DNA of 64,000 nucleotides from Erythrobacter sp. EC-HK427 (GTDB lineage: Bacteria > Pseudomonadota > Alphaproteobacteria > Sphingomonadales > Sphingomonadaceae). The stretch is taken from contig NZ_LR701479.1 of NCBI RefSeq assembly GCF_902498745.1, forward strand, positions 128,292-192,291, given 5' to 3'. Shown here piece by piece: positions 6,849 through 10,802 of the stretch (position 1 is the first letter of the stretch; each line of letters begins with the position of its first letter). The notes beneath the pieces were generated by a model. It ran no database searches. It was not told the origin of the DNA and saw nothing but the letters and a program-made list of their open reading frames with translations. Made by a program: the position numbers and the translations under genes.

Positions 6849-7241
6849 TTACGCGCAGGAACCGCGGCCACGGCCACGACCGGCACGGTCGCTATCGTCC
6901 GCGTCGGTCACGCCTGTGCGGCCATAACCGGCCTGGTCGTTCGGATCGCTATCGCTGGTGCCGTTGCTGGCGCCGCGACCACGGCCACCGCAATCGCTGT
7001 TCGCGCCGCTATCCGAATCGGTGACGCCCGAGGAGCCGCGGCCATAGCCGGCCCGGTCATTGGCGTCGGAATCAGTCAGGCCCGTACGTCCGTAACCGGC
7101 TTGGTCATTCGGATCGCTGTCGGTGCGGCCGGTGCGCGCCTGCTGCGCAATGGCCGGAACGGCGATAACAGTCGCCGCCGCTGCGCCCGTAATCAGGCCC
7201 ACAAACGAACGACGCGATACGGGCTTTGCTCTTTTTGCCAT
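6849..7241 (-). CDS. Small Tat-exported Asp/Gly/Arg repeat protein
   Basis: A 130-aa protein whose N-terminus has a twin-arginine signal (SRRSFVGLITG, then a hydrophobic stretch ending AIAQQA), so export as a folded protein is predicted. The mature part is almost entirely imperfect repeats of about 16 residues around TDSDPNDQAGYGRTG; roughly five units are seen, the third diverged and carrying a Cys (NSDCGGRGRG). The chain ends GRGSCA, giving a possible disulfide pair. The ATG at 7241 was chosen because GGGGGA precedes it and the Tat motif follows closely; an upstream in-frame start at 7295 is unlikely. The function is unknown; acidic DxDxND patches could bind metal, which is speculation. Confidence 0.8.
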   Translation of the reverse strand: MAKRAKPVSRRSFVGLITGAAAATVIAVPAIAQQARTGRTDSDPNDQAGYGRTGLTDSDANDRAGYGRGSSGVTDSDSGANSDCGGRGRGASNGTSDSDPNDQAGYGRTGVTDADDSDRAGRGRGRGSCA

Positions 7242-7381
7242 ACGAAAATCCCCCAACTTATGCCCCGGCGTCCCTGCCGAAGGTTTCCCAGGCACCTCTA
7301 TCCCACAAGGTGCCCTGATGAGGAGATACTAGATTTACAAATCGAAATGGCAAGCCCTCCCTACAAAAATGTCAGCAATTG

Positions 7382-9501: not shown

Positions 9502-10569
9502 TCAGATGGGCGACCACGGCTTGGCTTCGGCAGGCTCCTCGCTGTCGTCATCGGGAACCGTATCGGGCTGTTCGGTCATGGTTTTGTCCGGCAGATAGCT
9601 GAGGACGGCGTCCAGCAATTTGGGGATTCCCGCGCCGGTCGCGCTGGAAATCACGAACACATCATCCGCCCCGGCCTTTTTCAGCTCGTCGCCAAAGGCA
9701 TCACCCAATTCGGCATCGGCCAGATCGAGCTTGTTGAGCGCAACCAGCCGTGTCTTGCCGTCAAGTCCCGCGCCATAGGCTTCGAGTTCGCTATCAACGA
9801 TCCGCATCGCTTCCACCGGGTCTTCCCCGGCGATGTCGATCAGATGGATGAGCACGCGGCAGCGTTCGATATGGCCGAGGAAGCGATCGCCAATCCCCGC
9901 CCCTTCTGCCGCGCCTTCGATCAGGCCGGGAATATCCGCCAGCACAAATTCGCGGCCCTTGTGGTTCACCACTCCCAGCTTCGGAACAAGCGTGGTGAAG
10001 GCGTAATCGCCAACTTTCGCGCCCGCATTGCTGACCGCGTTGATAAAGGTCGATTTGCCCGCATTGGGCAGGCCGACAAGCCCCACATCGGCGAGCAGTT
10101 TCAGCCGCAGCCACACCCACATCTCCTCGCCCGGCATCCCCGGCTGGTGCTGGCGCGGCGCGCGATTGGTGGAGGTTTTGTAGGAAGCATTGCCGCGTCC
10201 GCCGATCCCGCCTTCGAGCAGCACGATTTCCTGCCCTTCATGGGTGAAATCGGCGAGCACCTCTTCCTTGTCTTCAGACAAGACCTGTGTCCCCACGGGC
10301 ACGTCGATCACGAGATCCTCCGCGCCCGCGCCATAGCGGTCTTTGCCCATGCCATGCCCGCCGCGCGCGGCCTTGAAGTGCTGGGTATAGCGGAAATCGA
10401 TCAGCGTATTGAGGCCGGGCACCGCGCGCATGATGATATCGCCACCCTTGCCGCCATTGCCGCCATCGGGGCCACCATATTCGACATACTTTTCACGCCG
10501 GAAGCTGACCGCTCCCGGGCCTCCGCCACCGGATTTGAGATAGACTTTGGCTTGATCGAGGAAGTGGAT
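9502..10569 (-). CDS. obgE: Obg-family GTPase, apparent ATC start codon
   Basis: Essential ribosome-associated GTPase acting in 50S assembly and stress control. The 355-aa protein has the glycine-rich Obg fold (residues 1-158), then the G domain with GLPNAGKST (G1), DIPGLIEGA (G3), NKLD (G4) and SSATGAG (G5). The first ATG in frame (10431) would delete 46 residues of the conserved Obg fold. The homologous N-terminus ?HFLDQAKVYLKSGGGGPGAV starts at an ATC codon (10567-10569), preceded at 6 nt by GGAGA. No ATG, GTG or TTG occurs between this ATC and the in-frame TAG at 10618-10620. Either ATC is the true start or one base of an ATG is misread or mutated. Confidence 0.9.
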   Translation of the reverse strand: MHFLDQAKVYLKSGGGGPGAVSFRREKYVEYGGPDGGNGGKGGDIIMRAVPGLNTLIDFRYTQHFKAARGGHGMGKDRYGAGAEDLVIDVPVGTQVLSEDKEEVLADFTHEGQEIVLLEGGIGGRGNASYKTSTNRAPRQHQPGMPGEEMWVWLRLKLLADVGLVGLPNAGKSTFINAVSNAGAKVGDYAFTTLVPKLGVVNHKGREFVLADIPGLIEGAAEGAGIGDRFLGHIERCRVLIHLIDIAGEDPVEAMRIVDSELEAYGAGLDGKTRLVALNKLDLADAELGDAFGDELKKAGADDVFVISSATGAGIPKLLDAVLSYLPDKTMTEQPDTVPDDDSEEPAEAKPWSPI

Positions 10570-10575
10570 CGGAAA

Positions 10576-10580
10576 TCTCC
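10576..10580 (-). promoter_or_regulatory. Shine-Dalgarno deciding the obgE start
   Basis: GGAGA on the reverse strand, six bases before the ATC at 10569-10567. Its spacing is ideal for initiation at that ATC and useless for the internal ATG at 10431, which is why the longer product was annotated. Confidence 0.65.
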
Positions 10581-10610: not shown

Positions 10611-10694
10611 ACCGCTTCTAATAGCGGTATCGGGCCGCGTCCAGCGACCCGCAAGGGCGACCGCCCGCCCGCAACGGGCGCAGCTTGCCTGCGC
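10611..10694 (-). repeat. Stacked hairpins between obgE and tRNA-Ala
   Basis: The interval between the tRNA gene and obgE holds several short perfect hairpins: ACCGCT/AGCGGT (10611-10628), CGCCCG-CAA-CGGGCG (10666-10680) and GCGCAG/CTGCGC (10678-10694). They lie downstream of the tRNA on its strand and could act in 3' processing or termination, but no U-run follows. No coding potential was seen. Confidence 0.4.
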
Positions 10695-10726
10695 ATCCGG
10701 CCAAAATGCGGGCGTTAGCGGAAAAC

Positions 10727-10802
<76 letters not shown>

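Follow-up and report, generated by a model that had tools for sequence, protein, structure and literature searches.

An ATC codon at the start position of obgE in Erythrobacter sp. EC-HK427, with ATT at the same position and a GGAG leader motif in two related species

The window, a stretch of 64,000 nucleotides of Erythrobacter sp. EC-HK427, carries on its reverse strand the gene for the GTPase ObgE. The coding sequence after the start codon occupies positions 9502..10566 and comprises 354 codons and a stop, as delimited by translation, curated models, and structure matches. Positions 10620-9502 of the reverse strand were translated as a stop followed by KRFSVPSACPYFWRFP-I-HFLDQAKVYLKSGGGGPGAV, and the frame ran from there to the stop codon at 9504-9502 without an internal stop. 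The product was assigned to the Obg/CgtA family as ObgE on the basis of full-length matches to the curated models NF008956 (439.6 bits, cut-off 300) and TIGR02729 (439.5 bits, cut-off 280). Solved ObgE structures matched the product from residue 2, and the N-terminal Obg domain (PF01018, residues 4-157) and the G domain (PF01926, residues 160-279) were both complete. A protein search of the source genome (G000; 3.14 Mb, 3 contigs) returned five matches, namely obgE and four others, and the three listed of these four were 32-37% identical to it in the GTPase part only. A second obg copy carrying the function was considered, and none was seen in G000, the similarity among the listed matches being confined to the GTPase part.

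Upstream of obgE and on the same strand, a tRNA-Ala(CGC) gene is located at 10727..10802, and a copy near obg was also found in 6 of the 10 relatives' loci that were scanned. An interspersed GC-rich repeat, which has many short matches across the genomes of the genus, lies between this tRNA gene and obgE at about 10630-10697. At 6849-7295, also on the reverse strand, lies the gene for a short protein that combines a Tat-like signal with TDSD...GYGR-type repeats and gave no Pfam match at E 0.1; two genes for similar proteins are close together in G009, a genome of the same genus (L175, 9216-9857 and 10048-10425).

At the position where the Obg start is expected, the codon is ATC (10567..10569, reverse strand), and it directly precedes HFLDQAK. 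It is preceded on the same strand by a GGAG Shine-Dalgarno core (10577..10580) and the 7-nt spacer ATTTCCG (10570..10576); read as GGAGA (10580-10576), the motif is 6 nt away. The region in which a start could lie is bounded by an in-frame TAG at 10618..10620, and ATG, GTG, and TTG were all absent from the 16 sense codons between this TAG and the ATC. The earlier note had described these same features, namely an intact Obg N-terminus with ATC at the Met position, GGAGA 6 nt from it, and no usual start back to the TAG, and its description was borne out on all three counts. The first in-frame ATG, GTG, or TTG downstream is the ATG of codon 47 (10429..10431, reverse strand), which a gene caller limited to these three codons would choose, yielding a 309-aa ORF and cutting 46 Obg residues, part of the N-terminal Obg domain among them. 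With the comparisons below taken into account, it is very probable that the ATC is a true feature of the DNA and serves as the start codon of obgE.

For the comparison with relatives, 40 genomes of the genus, which as compared here includes Aurantiacibacter luteus, were searched, and 39 obg loci were read, G018 being left out as a genome with matches to the GTPase part only. The start codon was ATG in 36 of the 39 loci, ATC in one (G000), and ATT in two (G009 and G011), and GTG or TTG was found in none. An AUH start (AUU, AUC, or AUA) was thus present in 3/39 loci and is not conserved over the related species; conservation of this kind holds for infC and ccpN but does not strictly define genes with AUH starts. 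In each of the 39 loci the codon is directly followed by HFLDQ[A/S]K, and 28 of them have a stop within five codons upstream; for these two reasons the start of the Obg family was placed at this codon. The same two features make it very unlikely that translation begins elsewhere, whether at the internal ATG of codon 47, at another upstream non-AUG codon, or at an upstream TTG in G011. Candidate codons for such a start do exist, since codon 47 is ATG in G000 and G009, codon 46 is GTG in G011, and the leader of G011 (L197, L178) has a TTG in frame with the ATT and five codons upstream of it. This TTG overlaps the GGAG region and has no GGAG at the usual distance from it; it may be a second possible start, in which case the ATT would possibly be dispensable there. 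An AUH codon with no in-frame AUG, GUG, or UUG up to the upstream stop was accordingly found in G000 and G009 alone among the three non-ATG genomes. Starting at codon 47 would cost the protein 46 residues of the GTP1_OBG domain, the domain that in E. coli touches the peptidyl-transferase centre according to PMC4028186, and neither GGAG nor AGGA occurs in the 20 nt before codon 47.

Outside the genus set, all 80 named obg loci of the GTDB collection, which by title belong mostly to other genera of the same group and at least six of which overlap with the 39-genome set, start with ATG. A pattern consisting of ATH followed by the Obg N-terminus was matched in 2/397 family genomes (G000 and G009), a sample that holds 12 genomes of the genus with G011 not among them, and in 2/385 class genomes (G000 and G886). 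The match in G886 was discarded as a chance match with stops in frame that is not obg. This pattern is blind to obg genes with different codons after the start, and a version allowing any NTN start fits 311 of 396 order genomes. The Fisher comparison of 3/39 with 0/385 (p = 0.0007) is too strong, as it takes all 385 genomes as readable.

The identity of the start codon was found to be linked with the ribosome-binding site. GGAG was present in the 20-nt leader of all three non-ATG genomes, in each case 7 nt from the codon, vs none of the 36 ATG genomes (p = 1.1e-4), and the contrast persisted without G011 (2/2 vs 0/36, p = 0.0014). Under the looser definition of a strong Shine-Dalgarno given in PMC5622118 (AGGA, GGAG, or GAGG), the counts were 3/3 and 8/36 (p = 0.018). 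The ATG genomes have TAAGG or GAGG in place of GGAG in 27 of 36 cases. With GGAG 7 nt away, the codon is preceded by a strong, well-spaced Shine-Dalgarno in all three. When the 39 leaders were ranked by the energy computed for pairing with the 16S tail, G011 was first, G009 second, and G000 seventh; these energies separate non-ATG from ATG genomes less sharply than the GGAG motif does. Predicted folding of the mRNA start region did not clearly set the three non-ATG genomes apart.

This link bears on the possibility that one base of an ATG was misread in sequencing or assembly; a single-base error was what the earlier note had named as the main alternative. ATC is one base away from ATG, and ATG is the codon in 36 of the 38 genus relatives and in 80/80 named relatives. 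The assemblies of G009 and G011, both given as 100% complete, nevertheless read ATT at this position, and the GGAG leader is common to the three non-ATG genomes and absent from the 36 ATG genomes; because an error would not be tied to an upstream motif, this explanation is now considered very improbable. The earlier note had also held that ATG in relatives would speak against the ATC. Most relatives do carry ATG, but the two ATT relatives and the linked change in the leader lead us to read ATG as likely the ancestral state rather than as the sign of an error in G000. As for a cause lying further upstream, tRNA-Ala(CGC) precedes obg in G000 and G011 and is absent from the 13 kb around obg in G009, and the tRNA gene was therefore dismissed.

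Locus genes whose start position does not vary served as controls. The start of bax was ATG in 38/38 genomes with a match, and that of ybjN was ATG in 36/38, the other two being unaligned at the start. For proB, ATG was found in 35/39, with CCC, GCG, and GGT in three genomes and one genome unaligned, and none of these codons was ATH. The cupin, epimerase, proC, lipoprotein, and SPOR genes were excluded as controls because their start position varies; one row of the epimerase alignment has ATT at the aligned start place. According to PMC5622118, 61,358 ancestral AUG starts gave rise to 363 changes to GUG and 113 to UUG (476 together), 2 to CUG, and 1 to AUU. Since published changes from AUG go mostly to GUG and UUG, three AUH changes with no GUG or UUG in one gene of one genus are unusual. 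Under the published spectrum, the probability that all three changes would be AUU-like is about 9e-9, or 2.5e-7 with CUG counted, both being rough values in which AUC is pooled with AUU; for G000 and G009 alone, the AUU-like probability calculated by hand is about 4e-6.

The main rival to a throttling of Obg synthesis through IF3, the reading developed below, is compensated drift, that is, an AUC start that is real but represents a mildly harmful change tolerated after a better Shine-Dalgarno had been gained, and that has no regulatory meaning. Stronger Shine-Dalgarno sequences compensating weak GUG and UUG starts are reported in PMC5622118, and the non-ATG start occurs in just 3/39 species, on separate branches. 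Drift does not readily account for the spectrum, given that GTG or TTG, by far the commoner change, is found at this codon in 0/39 genomes, that the rough probabilities above are very small, and that no ATH start occurs in the other locus genes with a fixed start position. It is regarded as a possible but less likely explanation.

Whether the non-ATG starts arose once or several times was evaluated on a maximum-likelihood tree built for the 39 genomes from seven proteins encoded at the locus (2182 columns), in which G000, G009, and G011 occupied separate places; the tree is drawn from the genes of one locus, and several of its nodes have low support (57-71). Forced monophyly of the three genomes was rejected (583 log units, AU p = 0.000273), and each pair as a clade was rejected as well, by 150-525 log units, a gap that may be overstated since the pairwise constrained trees came from a fast search. 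By our own count, a single origin would take nine returns to ATG on this tree, which makes separate gains the simpler account. Because the three genomes lie on separate branches, long maintenance of the rare start is not evident in any of them. The leaders themselves show some likeness. The string GGAGATTTCCGAT occurs once each in 11 of the 40 genus genomes; in G000 and in G011 it lies in the obg leader, and the 7-nt spacer between GGAG and the start codon is identical in these two genomes. In the 42-nt leader, G000 and G011 are mutually nearest (22/42), an identity reached by 57 of 741 pairs, and the nearest leader to that of G009 is also that of G011 (21/42). Over the first 60 bases of the coding sequence, G000 and G011 show no particular likeness (43/60, G011 ranking 27th of 38). 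The common GGAGATTTCCGAT could have arisen by convergence or by transfer of a very short tract, and together with the closeness of the three leaders to one another it would count to some degree against full independence of the three gains.

The reading of the obgE AUC that we favour, and hold to be reasonably probable from the known behaviour of such codons, as in infC and sigR, is that it is a real start that lowers the yield of Obg and makes it sensitive to IF3. AUC would be decoded by the initiator tRNA as fMet, while the GGAG 7 nt away, a good Shine-Dalgarno, would hold the 30S subunit in place at the near-cognate AUC. IF3 destabilises initiation complexes unless the codon is AUG, GUG, or UUG, and for this reason Obg synthesis would be low on AUC and would rise as IF3 activity drops, as for infC. 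The limiting and regulatory role that the earlier note had proposed for the codon would agree with published cases. From the intact frame, the absence of another usual start in G000, the ATT codons of G009 and G011, and the association with GGAG, we infer use of the AUC in the cell, a reduced yield, and dependence on IF3. Several observations weigh against this reading, namely the lack of conservation of the rare start, with ATG in 36 of 38 relatives, its scatter over separate branches, the upstream TTG of G011, the less sharp separation by pairing energy, and the unremarkable folding of the start region. That the AUC was selected as a control is doubtful, and the idea that obgE has repeatedly come under start-codon control by IF3 in the genus is put forward only tentatively.

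IF3 keeps the ribosomal subunits apart from the 30S side. According to PMC4028186, ObgE of E. coli is an anti-association factor of the 50S subunit and has been proposed as a checkpoint of late assembly, so a link between IF3 and its synthesis would make sense. If the proposal is true, an AUC or AUU obgE would raise the output of Obg whenever there is too little free IF3 for the 30S subunits present, and the two anti-association factors, IF3 and Obg, would be joined in a single feedback loop. AUU, AUC, and AUA starts are known for few bacterial genes and would be unexpected in an essential, apparently single-copy ribosome-assembly GTPase. The genus would then provide a natural experiment, with AUG obgE in most species and AUC or AUU together with GGAG in three separate lineages, which could separate IF3-coupled control from compensated drift.

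The obgE start was compared with the non-canonical starts described for other bacterial genes, to which it would add a case with an unusual evolutionary pattern. Like infC, which starts with AUU, AUC, or AUA, obgE has a near-cognate AUH codon after a strong Shine-Dalgarno; in the genus, the corresponding layout of infC is GGAG, 6-8 nt, and ATA. The ATA of infC is kept in all readable genus genomes, whereas the AUH of obgE is found in 3/39, and autoregulation of infC is described for E. coli in PMC5472188, whereas the control of obgE by IF3 is a prediction. The same source reports repression by IF3 of the non-canonical starts of infC and of sigR (GTC) of Streptomyces; sigR resembles obgE in being a gene other than infC with such a start, and differs in encoding a sigma factor rather than a ribosome-assembly GTPase and in having GTC rather than AUC or AUU. 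For Staphylococcus aureus, PMC13009471 describes extended Shine-Dalgarno sequences before infC (AUA, measured), cvfC1 (AUU), and ccpN (AUA), and a lowered yield was measured there for cvfC1 and ccpN, both of which combine AUH with a strong Shine-Dalgarno as obgE does. S. aureus and B. subtilis have the rare start of ccpN in common, whereas that of obgE is sporadic within one genus. The sigR start is experimental and those of ccpN and cvfC1 were mapped by ribosome profiling (PMC13009471), whereas the start of obgE was read from sequence, as were the AUU starts of lepA in two species (PMC1780047). LepA is, like ObgE, a ribosome-linked GTPase, and it needs an AUU start for its full length; it belongs to another GTPase family. 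The AUU start of E. coli pcnB limits expression according to PMC1780047, where it is spelled pncB, and a title cited in PMC13009471, and it is likened to obgE by this description. No report of a non-AUG start of obg was found in a literature search that covered titles and the beginnings of abstracts, with most subscription journals outside it; the word obg is absent from the text seen of PMC13009471 and occurs in that of PMC1780047 only within the reference list.

The start region of infC in the genus was read as GGAG, 6-8 nt, and ATA in 38/38 readable genomes (33 + 5), a set that leaves out G026, in which the locus is cut, and G018, which has a partial match. An ATG is found seven or eight codons further in without a GGAG before it, and this, together with the layout at the ATA, makes ATA the likely start of infC in the genus. 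In G025, G029, and G030, an in-frame stop lies two codons before the ATA. An upstream in-frame ATG, GTG, or TTG was absent from 19 of 33 loci and present in 14, so that ATA is not the sole possible start in the latter. In G000, infC is located on contig C2 around 1630405-1630659 (L186), and automatic annotation may miss its ATA start.

A generally relaxed initiation system was considered as an explanation and set aside, since in 33 IF3 sequences the private substitutions numbered 1 in G000, 1 in G011, and 6 in G009, and none was shared. The six substitutions in the IF3 of G009 (L265) were unseen in the other genomes compared. The initiator tRNA of G009 is identical to that of several relatives; the search for this tRNA gave no match in G000 and one weak match in G011 (71%, E 1.4e-4). 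The anticodon stem of initiator tRNA is typically GGG/CCC. All 23 full-length initiator tRNA genes that were read (L274-L296) have AGG/CCU instead, and the GGG/CCC initiator tRNA string is present in 1 of the 40 genus genomes. Three further stretches, L298, L299, and L300 (from G008, G004, and G027), contain 3' parts of the initiator tRNA gene with no 5' half in the stretch read, and these may be remnants of attachment sites left by elements that integrated at this tRNA gene.
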